A stretch of DNA of 40,192 nucleotides, from NCBI GenBank assembly GCA_025454395.1, contig JALOOM010000061.1, forward strand, positions 1 through 40,192, read 5' to 3'. This DNA comes from Elainella sp. Prado103. Its GTDB lineage: Bacteria; Cyanobacteriota; Cyanobacteriia; Elainellales; Elainellaceae. A program made the position numbers and the translations under genes. The notes under the pieces were generated by a model. That model did not search any database and had not been told where the DNA came from. It was given only the letters and a program-made list of their open reading frames with translations. Of the stretch, positions 16,509-28,010 are shown one piece after another; position 1 is the first letter of the stretch; every line of letters starts with the position of its first letter.

Positions 16509-17504
16509 CTAGTTATGGATGCGACCATCAGGCATAGTTGCTCCACGCAGGATGGCGCGCGTCAGGTTGGCGCTACTTAGCTCTGCCCGCGATAAATTGG
16601 CATCGGTTAGGTTGGCTTGCGTCAGATTGGCACGAGCTAGATAGGCATCCGTCAGGTTTGCCTCTTGCAAGATGGCTTCCCAGAAATTGGTGCGGCTCAG
16701 GTCGGCTCGTCCCAGTCGAGCTTGGGTCAGATTGGCCCGGGCTAGATGGGCCTTAGTCAGCTTGGCATCCGCGAGTAAAGCCCCTTGCAAATTCACGCTG
16801 GCCAAATCTGCCTCAATGAGTTGGGCTCGTTCCAACTTGGCATTGCGCAAATTGGCAGCCCGTAGATTGGTTTGAGTAAGATTGGCTTCGGTCAATAAAG
16901 CCCCTTTGAGGTTGGCTTCACTCAAGTCTGCCCCACTCAGATTGGCTCCTCGCAAGGTCACTTCACTCAAGTTTGCCCCACGTAGATCCACCTTTGCTAG
17001 ATCGGCCCCGGTGAGGTTTGCCCCGCGTAGGTCAGCCTTTCGCAACGTGGCACCGCGTAAATTAGCAGTATAGCGGCGATTTTCTTCTCGCAAATTTGCA
17101 CCCCGCAAACAAGCTCCAGTCAGATTCGCGCCACCTAAATCCGCATGGCGAAGGTCAGCATCAATGAGGTTGGCATCGAGCAGATTTGCCAGGGTGAGAT
17201 CGGCACTGCGTAGATCTGCTCCTTGCAGGATCGCGCCGTGTAAATCTGCATCTTTGAGGATGGCTCCGATTAATTCGGCCTGGCTTAAATTCGCTCCACT
17301 TAATTTCGTGGCCACTAGGTTCGCTTTCGTCAGTTTAGCCCGATTGAGATAGGCCAGCACCATCACTGCACTATGCAGATCAGCTTGCTGTAAATTAATC
17401 CCAATTAAGTCGGCGTGGGAAAGATTAATGCCCGTCAAGTTGGCACCCTGAAACTGCGTGTCTCCAGATGCATATCGTTTCAGTAGTTCAGATGGATTCA
17501 GCAT
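16509..17504 (-). CDS. Pentapeptide-repeat protein
   Basis: A 331-residue protein in which residues ~18-325 are almost continuous A(D/N)Lxx pentapeptides (e.g. ADLRGANLTGADLAKVDLRG), predicted to fold as a right-handed quadrilateral beta helix of roughly 15 coils. One break, at about residue 140 (REENRRYTANLRG), is a short loop. The first 17 residues (MLNPSELLKRYASGDTQ) form the usual N-terminal cap of cyanobacterial members. There is no signal peptide, membrane segment or fused enzyme domain. Function is unknown; some relatives mimic DNA, but that cannot be inferred here. The ATG at 17504 is clear. Confidence 0.93.
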   Translation of the reverse strand: MLNPSELLKRYASGDTQFQGANLTGINLSHADLIGINLQQADLHSAVMVLAYLNRAKLTKANLVATKLSGANLSQAELIGAILKDADLHGAILQGADLRSADLTLANLLDANLIDADLRHADLGGANLTGACLRGANLREENRRYTANLRGATLRKADLRGANLTGADLAKVDLRGANLSEVTLRGANLSGADLSEANLKGALLTEANLTQTNLRAANLRNAKLERAQLIEADLASVNLQGALLADAKLTKAHLARANLTQARLGRADLSRTNFWEAILQEANLTDAYLARANLTQANLTDANLSRAELSSANLTRAILRGATMPDGRIHN

Positions 17505-17606: not shown

Positions 17607-19136
17607 TTAGGAAGAGATGGGGCGATCGGGCTGCGTAATTTCGTGCGTATCCGCTTTCATGCTGGTAATCTCAGTTGCGGGAGCAGAGGATACCGGCACC
17701 AACGTGGGTGAAACGAGCATTTCTGTGTAACAAGGCTGAATTATCCGCAGGAGGGCCTCGGCGGCTTGAGAATATTCTGTGGCTGATAGAGTCTGGGCAG
17801 CTTGTCGTAATTTTTGCTCAACATCGGAGTACAACCGGTAGGAAATGAATAGAATCCGTAATAGATCATCGAGTTCATGGCTTTTGAGTAAAGCTTCATG
17901 ATCGGCATCCCACCGGAAAGGCTCATGCAAAATTGAAAACAGCAAAATTTTGACTTTAAACGGGTTGGTGTCTTGCATGATCTCCAACCGCAGATTAAAC
18001 AGATCGGTCAACTTCTGGGGTTGGGCGATCGTTAAAACTCGTGGCGGTCGTTGGGAGGTCGTTGATGCAGTTGAGGCGGCTGAGGCAGGGAAGGGCACTG
18101 CTGGGATCGGTTTGTGGTCGGACTGCAAAGAATCAGCCACCGGAGCAGGCACTGGCGCAGCAATTGGGGGTAGATCAGCTTCCGGGATAGGATGGGCGAT
18201 CGACTCCGGTTCCGTCATCGTACAGGTTTTGAATTCACTCAGGGAGTCCGCATAAGACGGAGATGGCGCATCGGGCGGCGGTTCTATCGCAGTTTGGATT
18301 TGCATGGGAGGCAGTTCCAGCGATCCACCCCCTGCAGGGGGATGAGGTTGACCCAGCCAAATCGTGGGTGGCTCTAACCAGGGCTCCGTAGAGCCTAGCT
18401 CCAAACAGGGCTGCTCTGCATACAGCGGTTGAAAAGCGTTGACGACCCGATGAGCAATTTCAACATATTCACCCGGCTTACTCAGCGCTTGAGCCACTTG
18501 CACCAACGTGGCTTGTAACCGATCCAGGGTGGGGGCAATTTGATAAAGCTCTGGCACAAGCTGTTCAAATGAAATCGAGTCCAACTGGGTAGGATTATTT
18601 TCCCAGCGGCTCCGACAGGTCAACAACAGCAGCTTTTTAATCCGAGTATGTTGGGGTTCAGCAGCCAAATTCTGCGCTATCTGTAGAGCAAGGGTAGGGT
18701 TAAGCAAACCCGGTTGCCCCTGGGGCAATTTTGCATAGAAACCAGCACACCGGCTCATGATGGCGGTCGCAAGAATGGTATATTCCGCCGATTTGTTGAG
18801 GGTGGCAACCACCTGATTCAGCCGTTGCTGTAAAGCTTCCAGATTGGGCGATCCTTCAAAGAGCTGCTGCAACAAGAACCGTAATGAGATCTGCTTCAGG
18901 CGATCTGAATCGCTCTCCCAAGTGCCAGAGCAAACATACAGCAGCAACTTTTTGATCCGAGTCGAATTGGGATCGAGGGTGAGCTCTGCTGCAATCTGAT
19001 CAAGAAGGGAAGACACCGTGAAGGATCGGGGTGATGGGCTAGGTGGAAGGGCACTGAGAACCATGGACGGCGATGCCTGCTGAGAAGATGCGTTGAGCCT
19101 AGAGTGCCCAACCTCTCCGTAGAGGGTAACGCCCAT
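17607..19136 (-). CDS. Unrecognised protein with three copies of a ~95-residue helical domain
   Basis: A 509-residue protein whose family I do not recognise. Internal comparison shows three related domains at about residues 43-135, 148-240 and 375-473. Domains 1 and 2 share TRIKKLLLxxCxxxWE, an IS...L..L.....P.L..L segment, V...L.K..EY and a terminal aromatic Tyr. Domain 3 is more diverged (FKVKILLFSILHEPFRWD; TLSATEYSQAAEALL). Between domains 2 and 3 is a ~130-residue Pro/Ala-rich linker, probably disordered. No catalytic motif, signal peptide or membrane segment is seen, so a scaffold or adaptor role is plausible. The ATG at 19136 (MGVTLYGEV) is chosen over TTG at 19157; no strong ribosome binding site precedes either. 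Confidence 0.78.
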   Translation of the reverse strand: MGVTLYGEVGHSRLNASSQQASPSMVLSALPPSPSPRSFTVSSLLDQIAAELTLDPNSTRIKKLLLYVCSGTWESDSDRLKQISLRFLLQQLFEGSPNLEALQQRLNQVVATLNKSAEYTILATAIMSRCAGFYAKLPQGQPGLLNPTLALQIAQNLAAEPQHTRIKKLLLLTCRSRWENNPTQLDSISFEQLVPELYQIAPTLDRLQATLVQVAQALSKPGEYVEIAHRVVNAFQPLYAEQPCLELGSTEPWLEPPTIWLGQPHPPAGGGSLELPPMQIQTAIEPPPDAPSPSYADSLSEFKTCTMTEPESIAHPIPEADLPPIAAPVPAPVADSLQSDHKPIPAVPFPASAASTASTTSQRPPRVLTIAQPQKLTDLFNLRLEIMQDTNPFKVKILLFSILHEPFRWDADHEALLKSHELDDLLRILFISYRLYSDVEQKLRQAAQTLSATEYSQAAEALLRIIQPCYTEMLVSPTLVPVSSAPATEITSMKADTHEITQPDRPISS

Positions 19137-19326
19137 TTTTGTATTTTTTATATCCAACGCTACGGAGATTCAGTCAGACAGACCCATAGCAAGCCGTCCC
19201 CTGCCATGGGTTCTGCATTCCTGCTGCCAGCAGACTTGCTGCTGACTCAGGGCAAACAGGGACAAACCACACGGATAGGGACGGCACAGGAAAATATGGG
19301 CTGGGGATAAGCTCAGCTTAGTCACC

Positions 19327-19377: not shown

Positions 19378-19983
<606 letters not shown>

Positions 19984-20067: not shown

Positions 20068-20730
20068 CTAAGCCAGCGCTGCCACAGGGTCAGGCACTTT
20101 AGAGCTAGTCAACACCCGATCGATCAAGCCATAGGCTTTGGCCTGCTCTGGTGTGAGATAGAAATTGCGCTCCATGTCTTGGGCGATTTTCTCGCGAGGT
20201 TGCCCGGTAGTTTCGGTCAAAATGTCAAGAATCAGAGATTGTTTCGCCAGCACTTCCTTGGCATTAATCTGGATGTCGCTGGCTTGACCGCGCGTGCCGT
20301 TGCGAGGGTGACTCAGCACGATCGTGGAGTGGGGCAAACTCGCCCGTTTCCCTTTGGTGCCGGTTGCCAGCAGCAGCGATGCCATGCCGATCGCCTGACC
20401 CAAACAAATGGTGACAATTTCGGACTTCACATGTCGCATCGTGTCATAGATCGCGAGTCCTGCATTGATCGACACCATGCCTGCTGTCACATCTGCCATA
20501 CCGGCTGAAACGGGATCGCCGATCGAGTTGATATACAAATAGATCGGCTTACTGGGGTCATCGGAGTCCAGGTATAGCATGGCCGAGACGAGGGAGTTCG
20601 CCACACCATCTGTAATTGCCTGATTGAGAAACAGAATGCGTTCCTGATTCAAGCGGGTGTAAATATCGATCCACTGGCCCTGCTGGCTACCCGGCAAAAT
20701 GTAAGGAACGTAAAGAATATCGTCTGGCAT
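20068..20730 (-). CDS. ClpP/ClpR mosaic: inactive Clp proteolytic-like subunit
   Basis: A 220-residue Clp-core paralogue between clpR and clpP3. Its first ~78 residues match ClpP3 closely (about 45 of 78 identical by hand count, starting VPYxxPGS..QW.) without the ClpR-specific N-terminus. From TICLGQA on it matches ClpR (about 71 of 114 identical, against about 43 of 108 to ClpP3). All three triad positions are lost: Ser to Gly115 (GQAIGMASLL), His to Ser140 (VLSHPRNG), Asp to Asn189 (DMERNF). A 14-residue insertion (about 79-92) sits beside the substrate strand. The ATG at 20730 has GTGAGGGTTT upstream, the same leader block as clpP3. It is probably a non-catalytic ring subunit; a ClpR-type role is inferred. 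Confidence 0.9.
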   Translation of the reverse strand: MPDDILYVPYILPGSQQGQWIDIYTRLNQERILFLNQAITDGVANSLVSAMLYLDSDDPSKPIYLYINSIGDPVSAGMADVTAGMVSINAGLAIYDTMRHVKSEIVTICLGQAIGMASLLLATGTKGKRASLPHSTIVLSHPRNGTRGQASDIQINAKEVLAKQSLILDILTETTGQPREKIAQDMERNFYLTPEQAKAYGLIDRVLTSSKVPDPVAALA

Positions 20731-21445: not shown

Positions 21446-21708
21446 AGCGTCTAACGCCTAAGAGCAATATTTCTTACATACTAAGATAAAAGGCTGGTCA
21501 CCGGCATCGTCGCGGCGGTGAGCCTGTTCTGGTAGAAGTAGGGATATCCGCATCTTCAGGAATGCGCAATTGCTGAATTGAAGTTGTTGATCTGGCTTGA
21601 ACCTGATCCTGATCTTGATCTTGAACCTGATCCGAAATCTGGCTTGAAGTTGACGTGGGTAGCCAACCCACGGACTGTCCATTGCACTGCCCAAGGAGTC
21701 TATATCTC

Positions 21709-22956
21709 ATGAAAGTCGGTTTGGAAGCTGCCCTGAGTGATCTCAACCTAGATGCAGGTCAAGCAGTGAGTCAACGACAACTCGCAGTTTCGCTGTCCGC
21801 GATCCCAGAAGCAGAAGGACGAACGGCTCCGCTCAATCTTTGTTTAATTCTGGATCACAGTGGATCGATGAATGGGCGGCCGCTAGACACCGTCAAACAG
21901 GCAGCTCACTGTATAGTAGATAGCCTTTCACCGGGCGATCGTCTATCGATTATCGTGTTTGATCACAAAGCCAAGGTGCTGGTGCCGAATCAGGTGATCG
22001 AAAATCCGGCCAATGTCAAGGTGGAAATCAATAAACTGCGGGCGAGTGGCGGCACGGCGATCGATGAAGGGATGCGGCTGGGGATTGAGGAGCTGGCGCG
22101 GGGTAAGCAGGATGCTATTTCTCAAGCCTTTTTGTTGACCGATGGCGAAAATGAGCATGGTAGTAACGATCGCTGTCTCAAACTTGCGCAACTGGCCGCT
22201 AGCTATAACTTAACCCTCAGCACCCTGGGGTTTGGCGATCATTGGAACCAGGATGTGCTGGAGCAAATTGCTGATGCGGCGGGGGGATCGCTCTCCTACA
22301 TTCAGCAGCCGGAAGAGGCAGTGGGTGAGTTTAGCCGTTTGTTTAATCGCGTCCAGTCCGTTGGCTTGACGAATGCCCATTTATTGTTGACCTTGCCGCA
22401 CCCAGTTCGCCTGGCCGAACTGAAGCCGATCGCTCAAGTGGTGCCTGAAACCATTGAACTTACAGCGGTACAAACCGATCCAGGACAATCGACCTATCTG
22501 GTACGGTTAGGCGATCTGATGGTAGATGTGCCGAGGGTCGTGCTGGCCAATCTGTATATCAGCCAATTGTCTGAAGGGCAACAACCGATCGCCACCTTGC
22601 AAGTGCGCTACGATGATCCGGTACGAGGGCAAACTGAAGTGCTGTCGGATCCCCTGACGGTGACCGGTCAGGTCTTGAAGCTTTACCAGCCTGCGGTTAA
22701 TCCGCCGGTGCAGCAGCATGTGTTAGCATTGGCGAAATACCGGCAAACCCAAATTGCCGAAATGAAGCTCATTCAGGGTGATCGGGCTGGAGCAGCCACC
22801 ATGCTTCAATCGGCAGCTAAAACAGCGCTGCAAATGGGCGACTATAACGCAGCCACGGTTCTACAGGATAATGCGACCCGTCTACAGGATGGAGAAGAAC
22901 TCTCTGAAGCCGATCGCAAGAAGACTCGGATCGTCTCGAAAACGATTTTGCAATAG
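21709..22956 (+). CDS. VWA-domain protein with intact MIDAS
   Basis: A 415-residue cytosolic von Willebrand factor A protein. The metal-ion-dependent adhesion site is complete: DHSGS at 49-53, Thr116 in ASGGTAID, and Asp145 in LLTDGENEH. The VWA domain spans ~40-220. After it comes a beta-rich region (~225-340, PHPVRLAELKPIAQVVPETIEL) and a helical C-terminal part (~340-415) containing ALAKYRQTQIAEMKLIQGDRAG. This three-part build is common in cyanobacterial and actinobacterial VWA proteins that scaffold kinases or chaperone-like complexes. The ATG at 21709 follows AAGGAGT with an ~10-nt gap. It is divergent from the clp cluster. The partner is unknown. Confidence 0.87.
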   Translation: MKVGLEAALSDLNLDAGQAVSQRQLAVSLSAIPEAEGRTAPLNLCLILDHSGSMNGRPLDTVKQAAHCIVDSLSPGDRLSIIVFDHKAKVLVPNQVIENPANVKVEINKLRASGGTAIDEGMRLGIEELARGKQDAISQAFLLTDGENEHGSNDRCLKLAQLAASYNLTLSTLGFGDHWNQDVLEQIADAAGGSLSYIQQPEEAVGEFSRLFNRVQSVGLTNAHLLLTLPHPVRLAELKPIAQVVPETIELTAVQTDPGQSTYLVRLGDLMVDVPRVVLANLYISQLSEGQQPIATLQVRYDDPVRGQTEVLSDPLTVTGQVLKLYQPAVNPPVQQHVLALAKYRQTQIAEMKLIQGDRAGAATMLQSAAKTALQMGDYNAATVLQDNATRLQDGEELSEADRKKTRIVSKTILQ

Positions 22957-23740: not shown

Positions 23741-26700
23741 CTACTCAATGCCCTCGATCCGATCCTCCACTTCCTGATAGAGCTGCCGCAGCAATTCCAG
23801 GTTTTCCTCGCTGGTTTCCCAGTAGCCACGCCCGTTCACTTCCAGCAGCGTGCTGACCACCTTGCGGAAAGAGTGGGGGTTGAGGTTCATCAAGCGTTGC
23901 CGCATTGCTTCATCTTGAATGAAGGTGGCGTTGGTGTCTTCGTAGATCCAATTGTCTACAGCACCGGCCGTCGCCGACCAGCCCATGGTGTTGACCAGCC
24001 GCTTCGACAGCTCGCGCACCCCTTCGTAGCCGTGGGACAGCATTCCCTCATACCATTTGGGGTTGAGCAGCTTGGTACGAGCATCCAACCGCACAGTTTC
24101 CGACAGGGTGCGCACCTGAGCGTTGGCCGTGGTGGTGTCAGCCACATAGGAGGAGGGCTGCTTGCCATCGCCCCGCAGTTGCGCCACAACCTTGGTGGGA
24201 TCGGAGTCGAAGTAGTGGGAGACATCCGTGAGGGAAATCTCTGACGAGTCGAGGTTCTGGAAGGTGACATCCACCGTCTTCAAAGCCGCCTCAAACACGC
24301 CGCGCGATTGATCCATCATGCCGGGATTATCGGAATTGAAGGCAAAGGATTTCCGAGCCAGGTACATATCCTGAAGCTCCGACTCGCTTTCCCAAGTGCT
24401 GTTCTCCACCGCCAGGTTGACGTTGGCGGCATAGGAGCCGGAGGCATTGGAGAAAATGCGGGTGGCAGCCTGACGCAGGTTGACTCCCAGATCTTCAGCT
24501 TGCTTCAGGGCGTGCTTGCGGACGAAGTTCATCTCCAGTGGTTCATCGGCTTCGGCGGCCATCTTGACGGCCCGATCAAGCAAATTCATCTGGTTGATGA
24601 ATAAATCGCGGAATACCCCAGAGCAGTTGACCACCACATCAACGCGGGGGCGACCCAACTCTTCCAGGGAAATTAGCTCCACTTTGTTGACGCGACCCAG
24701 CGCATCCGGCACCGGCCGTACCCCGACCAGCAGCATCACCTGAGCCAGCGATTCACCGTAGGTTTTGATGTTGTCGGTGCCCCAGAGCACGAAGGAGATG
24801 GTTTCTGGGTAGTTGCCGCCGTTCTCCGATCGTTCGCGGGCCAGTAACCGATCGACCACAATCTGGGCCGACTGCACCGCCGCCGTGGTCGGAATCGACT
24901 GGGGATCGAGGGCATGGATATTTTTGCCGGTGGGCAGCACATCCGGATTGCGGATCGGATCGCCACCGGGGCCAGGCAGGATATATTCTCCTTCCAAAGC
25001 CTTCAGCAGTGCTCCCAACTCGTTATCGGCTGTCACCTGCTTGAGGCAAAACTCCAGATACTCAAACAGCGGCTTTATCAAATCCCCGTCCACTTTCGGG
25101 TAGCCCGCTTCGCTCAGAGACTCGATCCAAGGCTCTTTGCGACCCAGGTTGAAGAAGTTGAGCTTGGTGACTTTGGAAACTCGCCCGTCGGCATCGATCT
25201 GCTCTTGCACCATGGCTGCCACTGCCACCCGGGCGGCCTGGTTAATTTCATAGAGCAACTGCACATCTTCGAGCACGCCCCGATCGCTGTTGCGATAAAT
25301 GTCGTCAATGTCGCGTCCGAGGCTACTAGCAATGATGCGGGGTAGGCTTTGAATCTCGTCTTCCGGGCGATCGATCCCAGCAATGTTCACCAATGTGGCG
25401 ATCGCCTCTTCTGCCGTGGGAGCCTTGCCGATTACATGCAGACCGCAGGGCAACAGCCGCGACTCGATTTCCATCAGTTTGATGTAGACCTTGCCCACCA
25501 GCGTGTCCCGCTCCTCAGCGCTGAGGGTCGAGGCATCGTCGTTGTCCGGCAGGCTGATGTCCTTATCCAGATTGACCAAGCGGCATTTATCGATGATCGC
25601 GTTGACGATCGGCACTGCCCGGCCACCATCCTTCAGGGTCTGGTAGGAGGCGATCAGTTCACTCAATTCCTTCAGCCCCTTATAGAGACCGGCGTTTTCG
25701 GCCGGTGGAGTCAAGTAGCTGATCGTTTCGGCGTAGCTGCGGCGTTTGGCGATCGTCGCTTCCGAGGGGTTGTTGGCTGCGTAGTAGTAGAGGTTGGGGA
25801 TCGTGCCGATCAGGCTATCGGGGTAGCATTCACCCGACATGCCCATCTGCTTCCCAGGCATAAACTCCAGCGAGCCATGGGTGCCAAAGTGCAGTACCGC
25901 GTCCGCCTGCCAGATCCGCTCCAGATAGGTGTAGTAAGCGGCAAAGCCATGGTGGGGGCTGGCCGATCGGGAGAACAACAGCCGCATTGGATCGCCCTCA
26001 TAGCCGAAGGTGGGCTGCACACCGATGAACACGTTACCGAAGGCTTTGCCGAACACCAGCAGATTCTGCCCGTCGGTATTCAGATGTCCGGGAGCCGGGC
26101 CCCAGGAATCTTCCAGCCGGTGGTGGTAGGGGGTGAGGCTCTCATATTCTGGTACCGACATCCGGTAGGCGATGTTCAGTTCTGGGCTACTGTACTGAGC
26201 CTGGGCATCATGGATCACTTCCTGCATCAGGGCTTCTGCCGAATCGGGCAAATCCTGGACATCGTAGCCGTTGTGCTTCAGGGCTTTTAGGGCTTCGTAG
26301 ATCGAGCCGAACACATCCAGGTAAGCAGCCGTCCCAACGTTACCTTTGTCGGGTGGGAAGCTGAACACCGTGATCGCCACTTTCTTGTGGAGCTTGGGCT
26401 TGCGGCGCAGGTTGGCCCATTTCATCGCCCGCTGGGTGATCGCCTCGACCCGGTCTTGCAGCGCGATCGCCTTACCCGTGTTGCCGTCTCGCCCCGACAG
26501 GATGATTGGTTCGATCGCCCCATCCAGCTCTGGGATGGCAATTTGCAATGCCACCTGGATCGGGTGCAGCCCCAGTTCGCTATCCTGCCACTCTTCTGTA
26601 GTCTGAAACACCAGTGGTAAAGCCACCATATAGGGGCGATTCAGCCGCTTCAAGGCTTCGATCGCCTTCGGGTGATCTTGCCGGGCTGGGCCACCTACCA

Positions 26701-27727
26701 GCGCAAAGCCCGTCAGCGACACCACCACATCGACGATCGACTGTTTGGTGATCGGATCGTAAAAGAAAGCATCCACTGGCTTGGAAAAGTCCAGACCGCT
26801 GGCAAACACCGGCACCACCTTAGCGCCCATGGATTCCAGCTCCTGCACCATAGCCACATAGTGGGCATCATCCCCCGTCACCAAATGGGTACGCTGGAGC
26901 ACCAGTCCAATGCAGGGCGCGAGCGGATCCTTGACATCGGCGGAAACATCCGGGCGGGAGCTAAACCAGTTGAGGTATTCCTTCAGGTCTTCGAACATCT
27001 GGGGAGCCAGCGGGTGCCAGATGCCTAAGTCAGGATAGGTGACCGGATCGCGATACTGCACTGGCGCATTACTCTTGATGCCATCCTTGCAGACATACTT
27101 GTCCGCCAGCATCAGCAGGAAGTTTTCCAGGTTCTCGGCAGAGCCACCCAGCCAATATTGGAAGCTCAACATGAAGTTGCGAGCATCCTGAGCCTTGTCC
27201 ATTGGTAGATACTTCAGGACTTGGGGCAAGGTGCGCAGCAGCTTCAGCATCGCATCCTGGAAACCCGCGCCGGATTTCTCCTTACGCTTCTTCATGAAGC
27301 CGGAAATGATGCTCTTCGATTGGCCAATCTGCGCCATCGAGAAGCTGCCCATCTTGTTGAGGCGCATCACCTGCGGCATGGACGGAAATACAACTGCCAC
27401 ATCCAGCCGATCGCGATGGGGTTCCACCGCTGCCACGACCTTCTCTGCCAGCTCTTCGATGAAGATCAGGGATGCAATGAAGATATTTGCCTCCGCCATA
27501 TCCTGCTGCAAGGCCTCGTAGTTTTCGGGGCTGCGAAGCTCTTCCAGCAAGTAGCCGCTAATTTCGATTGCTAAATTGGGGTTATTTTGGTTAATCGAAC
27601 GAACTGCCGCCGAGAGTGAACTCTGGTATTGCGGCTCTAGCACGACATAGACCACCTTGATCAGCGATCGCCCCTGGAGGTTTTCGGGAACGATATGCCG
27701 GATCGTGGGCTTGACGTGAGTGAACAT
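23741..27727 (-). CDS. chlH: Magnesium chelatase subunit H
   Basis: The 1328-residue porphyrin-binding large subunit of Mg-chelatase. With ChlI and ChlD it inserts Mg2+ into protoporphyrin IX, the first committed step of chlorophyll synthesis, helped by GUN4. Length and order match cyanobacterial/plant ChlH rather than CobN: N-terminal [20 protein letters not shown], then [37 protein letters not shown], the BchH/CobN core with [19 protein letters not shown] and [29 protein letters not shown], and the C-terminal [19 protein letters not shown]. The ATG at 27727 has AAGGAG 9 nt upstream. The frame is open 81 codons further, but that part is Cys-rich and unlike the family. chlI and chlD are not in the window. 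Confidence 0.97.
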
Positions 27728-28010
27728 GCGGTTAGGCTCCTTCTCAAAAGCTGTCAGCAACGTTGAGACCGATCGCAGGCAACAGCCATCCGCGCAAAAA
27801 TCGCAGGGTTTTGTAGCTCCACTCCCCGTCCTGAATGCAATGGCTGGGCACCGAACGTAAAACGTTACATTAGCGTTTGTACCAGAAAAACAGCTCCAAA
27901 TGTAAATTTCAACCCTTATCTGACACAAATCTCTAGAATCTCGGCGATGTTTGTTTACATTTCTTGACAATTAGGAGAGTGTGTGCTCATATTAATGATG
28001 AAGCTCCACT

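Follow-up and report, generated by a model that had tools for sequence, protein, structure and literature searches.

Cyanobacteria have one ClpR and three ClpP proteins, and their ClpP3/R core is essential, according to passages of PMC7966870. In Synechococcus, the ClpP3/R ring has the arrangement R-P3-R-P3-R-P3-R and works with ClpC, as described in part of PMC4673316, where the reason that Clp cores keep mixed and inactive subunits is called unclear. The window, which is the whole stretch of 40,192 nucleotides of cyanobacterial DNA analysed here, carries a block of three ClpP-family genes on its minus strand, in the order clpR, X and clpP3 (Table 1). Two more clpP genes lie at other sites of the window's genome, which has a single clpR match (E <= 1e-60). 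At the columns of the catalytic triad, X has Gly115/Ser140/Asn189, ClpR has Gly120/Asn145/Met194 and ClpP3 has Ser101/His126/Asp176. The preliminary description of this DNA had stated that all three catalytic residues of X are lost, and differently from those of ClpR, and its positions are right.

Table 1. Gene X, its partners and its subdivisions in the window.
Feature	Position	Strand	Score or evidence
Gene X, the block's third gene beside clpR and clpP3; type X-I, 220 aa	20068..20730	-	PF00574, 215.4 bits
clpR, first gene of the block, 226 aa	20765..21445	-	NF009204, 423.2 bits (cut-off 263)
clpP3, last gene of the block, 201 aa, intact Ser-His-Asp, head signature F28/E37/A46/Y50	19378..19983	-	
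X residues 1-106, ClpP3-like head	20413..20730	-	31 diagnostic sites
X residues 107-220, ClpR-like body	20071..20412	-	24 diagnostic sites and AU test
Loop-1 insertion of X, about 14 residues (~73-86)	20473..20514	-	alignment, lengths, AlphaFold2 model
Gly115 codon of X (catalytic Ser column)	20386..20388	-	
Ser140 codon of X (catalytic His column)	20311..20313	-	
Asn189 codon of X (catalytic Asp column)	20164..20166	-	

X is predicted to fold like ClpP. The AlphaFold2 model of X has a mean pLDDT of 81, with the handle (residues 146-155) under 50, and the ClpP fold is predicted for residues 4-210; a ClpR model built for comparison has a mean pLDDT of 34. A structure search with the X model returned ClpP in the top PDB rows, the first being B. 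subtilis 7p81 (Z 27.7, rmsd 1.3 over 169 residues) with others tied. The loop-1 insertion is defined relative to ClpP3, and the helix that follows it is lengthened (residues 81-100 in the model). Judged by eye, the insertion region of X-I (20452-20514, minus strand) looks like two added copies of a seven-residue unit around AGM, and the units SAGMAD, TAGMVS and NAGLAI suggest a tandem duplication. Around the block, a 516-aa ORF without a Pfam match lies downstream of clpP3 (17607-19157, minus strand) and adjoins a pentapeptide-repeat protein (16509-17504, minus strand). On the opposite strand, a von Willebrand A protein (21655-22956) adjoins clpR, and a CobN/Mg-chelatase large subunit with DUF3479 is encoded at 23741-27970 on the minus strand.

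Sequence models place X in the Clp protease superfamily. It scores 215.4 bits against PF00574, for which the curated cut-off is 20.2. Ten NCBIfam models match X, each with a score under its own curated cut-off. Against the ClpR model NF009204 the score is 213.8 bits over the best stretch (residues 36-211), and the X-II protein of locus L030 reaches 228.1 bits, compared with a cut-off of 263. X lacks both the triad and the MPIG N-terminus of ClpP3. It has the triad loss and the body of ClpR but not the ClpR-type head, since the alignment and the diagnostic sites reveal neither the PPPDLPSLLLKERIVYLG opening nor the insertion of about 10 residues.

Loss of the active site extends across the family. 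The full triad is present in none of 88 X proteins (Asp in 0, His in 1 and Ser in 11), and eight of the 17 X-II proteins have Ser-Ser-Arg at the triad columns. Arg188 is conserved in 87 of the 88. Ser-His-Asp is found in 135 of 136 ClpP3 proteins, and the sole exception is a mislabelled ClpR of locus L237, which was called ClpP3 by best match; the true ClpP3 of L237 is uncounted, and the odd row was left out of the diagnostic-site and signature counts. This divergent ClpR (G037, family f14) has a RTPPPDLPSLLLNERIVYLG opening and Gly-Tyr-Leu at the triad columns, and its gene adjoins clpP3. Among ClpR proteins, a His occupies the catalytic His column in 28 of 55 from X-less clusters, in 3 of 69 beside X-I and in 0 of 17 beside X-II. 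The MPIG start, which in ClpP3 helps ClpC binding, is present in 132 of 136 ClpP3 and in 0 of 88 X proteins, one of which (L206) is cut at its start.

X is widespread and occurs in two types. X-I was found in 61 of 388 genomes of the class (profile E <= 5.3e-103) and X-II in 17 others (profile E <= 7.2e-103), 78 together or about a fifth, with both cut-offs placed at gaps in the score lists after these lists were known. The tally by family gives ten families for X-I (f1, f3, f4, f6, f10, f13, f16, f21, f25 and f31) and two for X-II (f1 and f16). By alignment, 23 of 40 related genomes, the window's included, carry X, 19 of them type I and 4 type II. A scan of named genomes yielded at least 47 X loci (L038-L084) among the 80 loci listed, and X-bearers among the listed matches include Leptolyngbya PCC 7375, Leptolyngbya PCC 6406, Adonisia turfae, Dolichospermum planctonicum NIES-80, Chroococcus FPU101, Aphanothece hegewaldii and Chamaesiphon polymorphus.

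Gene order is conserved. All 80 non-duplicate loci with three intact genes have the order clpR-X-clpP3 (64 X-I and 16 X-II), and three additional loci have this order with split ORFs. A clpR-X pair stands alone at three loci, two of them at contig ends and the third in a genome (G029) with clpP3 elsewhere on the chromosome. Repeats of an earlier sequence, loci L085-L117 except L087, and the repeat window loci L003-L007 were excluded. ORFs shorter than 190 aa and the X of L079 were dropped from one alignment, and ORFs shorter than 180 aa from the ClpR tree. In the metagenome-assembled genome RM1_2_2 (L010/L038), clpP3 appears as two ORFs, perhaps through a frameshift or an assembly error. Genome G007 (f1 g4) has an extra ClpP1/ClpP2-like gene, with four matches compared with three in the other 15 genomes. 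Phages and plasmids were rejected as carriers of X: tblastn of X gave matches in 114 phage records and 158 plasmid records, and the best places were all below 60% identity. The best 8 phage rows and best 10 plasmid rows are 43-46% identical to X and are ordinary ClpP where annotated.

X combines a ClpP3-like head with a ClpR-like body. At diagnostic sites, which are columns with a consistent difference between ClpP3 and ClpR, the head of X-I is ClpP3-like at 16 and ClpR-like at 2 of 31 sites, and its body is ClpR-like at 13 and ClpP3-like at 2 of 24 sites. For X-II, the corresponding values are 19 and 2 in the head and 13 and 5 in the body, and the ClpR-like run begins at residue 104. Identities counted by hand in the preliminary description come close to those in our alignments: residues 1-78 match ClpP3 at 41 of 72 aligned positions (45 of 78 by hand), and residues 107-220 match ClpR at 73 of 114 (71 by hand) and ClpP3 at 44 of 108 (43 by hand). 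Residues 1-78 match ClpR at 23 of 78. Where head states differ from ClpP1, X-I has seven in common with ClpP3 and one with ClpR.

Trees were built with FastTree and, for smaller sets, with IQ-TREE. In the FastTree head tree, X-I and X-II are nested in ClpP3; the nine ClpP3 proteins closest to X all come from X-less genomes, and two other X-less ClpP3 lie outside. In the body tree, X falls with ClpR, and X-I is not one clade but surrounds ClpR and X-II. For the body after residue 105, a grouping of X with ClpP3 was rejected (AU p 0.001 and 0.0005), and nesting the body of X with the ClpR of X-bearing clusters cost 18.5 log units against the best tree but was not rejected (AU p 0.19). For the head only, in a set of 78 taxa, the AU test kept X with ClpR (p 0.34) and ClpP3 without X (p 0.28), and X with ClpP3 to the exclusion of ClpR was no better (p 0.29); an earlier fast run with 65 taxa had placed X+ClpP3 ahead of X+ClpR by 21 log units. 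The X+ClpR head is not rejected because the ClpR head stem is extremely long, at about 1.6 substitutions per site, and is loosely attached. Simulations with one tree and proportional rates reached the observed contrast between the halves in 0 of 200 cases in each of two sets (T of 0.394 and 0.402 versus simulated maxima of 0.126 and 0.121). With one tree, the BIC was 25472 for branch lengths unlinked between the halves and 25070 for linked ones; full unlinking was not favoured. Judged from these sequence comparisons, the split between head and body most likely arose by an ancient recombination of clpP3 and clpR, which is favoured, rather than proven, over fast evolution of the ClpR head.

The strongest alternative involves no recombination. 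X would then be an early side branch of ClpR with an ancestral ClpP3-like head, and the ClpR head would later have evolved very fast. The head-only AU result and the long, loose ClpR stem leave this standing, and an insertion at loop 1 relative to ClpP3 is present in both proteins, mostly +9 residues in ClpR, +6 to +9 in X-II and mostly +14 in X-I (seventeen ClpR rows of loop length 6 are a pattern-matching artefact). However, opposite bursts on consecutive branches would be required. In a tree constrained to unite X and ClpR, the shared stem measures 0.86 in the body and 0.07 in the head, and the subsequent stem of ClpR alone measures 0.06 in the body and 1.66 in the head. Since the proportional-rate simulations and the head states unlike ClpP1 also speak against it, we regard an early ClpR side branch as fairly unlikely.

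The neighbouring ClpP3 co-varies with X. At least three of the four residues F28, E37, A46 and Y50, which are positioned in the first strand and helix of the ClpP3 head, are present in 65 of 65 ClpP3 beside X-I. The same signature appears in 0 of 70 other ClpP3, of which 53 were typed as X-less and 17 as X-II; the X-II typing of locus L200 came from 63 residues at a contig edge, which look like the tail of a ClpR, so these 17 are 16 plus one X-less, and L200 may also sit in the random ClpP3 sets. X-I proteins themselves do not have the signature (0 of 71). The contrast persists within the six families that have both kinds of cluster (f1, f3, f13, f16, f25 and f31).

Comparisons within genera point to exchange of the block. 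When a species with X is set against two X-less species of genus g94, identity is 99% in ClpP1 but 67% in ClpR and 84% in ClpP3, for which the two X-less species share 98% and 100%. A pair with and without X in genus g69 gives 97%, 72% and 82% for the same proteins, and X-I and X-II species of the window's genus give 94%, 79% and 84%. The contrast between ClpP1 and ClpR is absent in the window's own family, in which two X-less relatives match the window at 83-86% in ClpP1, 85-86% in ClpR and 80-81% in ClpP3. At the DNA level, both flanks of the block can be aligned in the g69 pair, at 84% upstream and at 78%, 71% and 85% downstream, and the clpR and clpP3 genes occupy the same place with identities of 73% and 75%. 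The g94 pairs align downstream (83-87%), and their upstream alignment ends about 100 bases from clpR. All 18 genomes tested have a single ClpR match, and the block therefore replaces rather than adds; both blocks together were found in 0 of these 18. In the ClpR tree, the ClpR of four X-I loci (L022, L061, L063 and L066) falls among those of X-less loci, and the reverse is seen for L235, an X-less locus whose ClpR falls among the X-I ones. On these sequences, it looks as if the clpR-X-clpP3 block had been replaced whole in some genera, which is not a general rule. Differential loss of two ancient blocks is also conceivable.

We consider it likely that, in a subset of cyanobacteria, the ClpC-dependent ClpP3/ClpR core contains X as a third subunit without catalytic activity, and that the three genes are inherited as one clpR-X-clpP3 block, which some lineages have exchanged. 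Some cyanobacteria would thus probably build their Clp core from three kinds of part and not two. Two kinds of inactive subunit in one ring, the idea put forward in the preliminary description, would still be the most probable reading. Co-assembly of X with the core and the slot that it takes are what we infer. The head of X, which corresponds to the pore and apical face of ClpP, is of ClpP3 type, and its ClpR-type body bears the active-site region and the ring-ring handle. A seven-member ring of two alternating parts cannot avoid one R-R contact. X would most likely join ClpR and ClpP3 in the ring of seven, where it could take a ClpP3-type slot, which would leave fewer active sites per ring, or the odd seventh position. 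More tentatively, and with a doubtful prospect of being right, there may be two interchangeable ClpC cores: a two-part ClpP3/R and a three-part ClpP3*/R/X, with X at the seventh position or in the ClpP3 slot, the ClpP3 head re-tuned and the block exchanged in place. Exchange would then take place at a single site of the chromosome, since the parts would function only as a set.

X could instead act outside the ring as a free regulator, such as a decoy for ClpC or ClpR or a factor in their assembly, and its ClpR-like body and lack of an MPIG start are compatible with this. The predicted ClpP fold and the conserved Arg188 make such a role distinctly unlikely, as does ClpR, the nearest inactive paralogue, which is a ring subunit in the part of PMC4673316 cited above.

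X is under purifying selection. In pairs that yielded a value, its dN/dS is 0.05-0.16, compared with 0.01-0.09 for ClpR and ClpP3. Within genera, X proteins are 77-87% identical and ClpR and ClpP3 are each 90-94% identical, and dN of X exceeds that of both partners in every pair with values for all three. X thus changes more quickly than ClpR and ClpP3, a pattern that a dispensable part could show. The same speed would suit a decaying or neutral duplicate with no role, a reading to which we give very little credence given the dN/dS values, the place conserved across families and the tie of X-I to a changed ClpP3 head. Where the X ORF is split or shortened (L079 and L084), clpR or clpP3 is split as well, and assembly errors are therefore likely.

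The weakest explanation, which the preliminary description proposed, is that the two flanking genes recombined recently within this genome or genus; it is rejected by the distribution of X and retains next to no probability: X does lie between both putative parents and has a 10-base leader before its ATG, GTGAGGGTTT, in common with clpP3 here, but X-I orthologues span ten families, the window's X has 77-79% identity with X-I proteins from three congeners and matches its own neighbours at 55 of 92 residues in the head (ClpP3) and 73 of 114 in the body (ClpR), it groups in separate head and body trees with other X and away from its own clpP3 and clpR, and the leader match is confined to this genome (X-I 1 of 71, X-II 0 of 17, ClpP3 of X clusters 1 of 87, X-less ClpP3 0 of 55) and so fails as evidence of a mosaic. 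The mosaic character that had been proposed is supported; the local origin from flanking genes gives way to a widespread family (78 of 388 genomes). The same description held that membership of a widespread family would speak against a mosaic, which is borne out for a recent mosaic and leaves an ancient one favoured, short of proof.

Our literature search of open-licence PMC papers found no description of X or of a second cyanobacterial ClpR. If X, as a second inactive subunit family, is in the core, the subunit count of the ClpP3/R core changes in about a fifth of the sampled genomes. X would offer a bacterial test case for mixed and inactive Clp subunits, of which plastids are the extreme form, and genera that naturally include species of both kinds, X-bearing and X-less, lend themselves to it directly. 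X resembles cyanobacterial ClpR (NF009204 / PRK12552) in being an inactive ClpP paralogue in the same block, with a ClpR-like body (residues 107-220), Gly in most cases at the Ser column and an insertion at loop 1; it differs in its ClpP3-like head, from which the ClpR opening and head insertion are missing. With cyanobacterial ClpP3 it shares head residues 1-106 (VPY..PGS...W..IY.R), and unlike ClpP3 it has no triad and no MPIG start, and has the loop-1 insertion and the ClpR-like body. The plastid ClpP/R core, with ClpR1-4, combines several kinds of inactive subunit, as reported in sections of PMC7966870, and the same may hold for cores with X. The plastid sets expanded after endosymbiosis, according to the same sections, whereas X belongs to free-living cyanobacteria.
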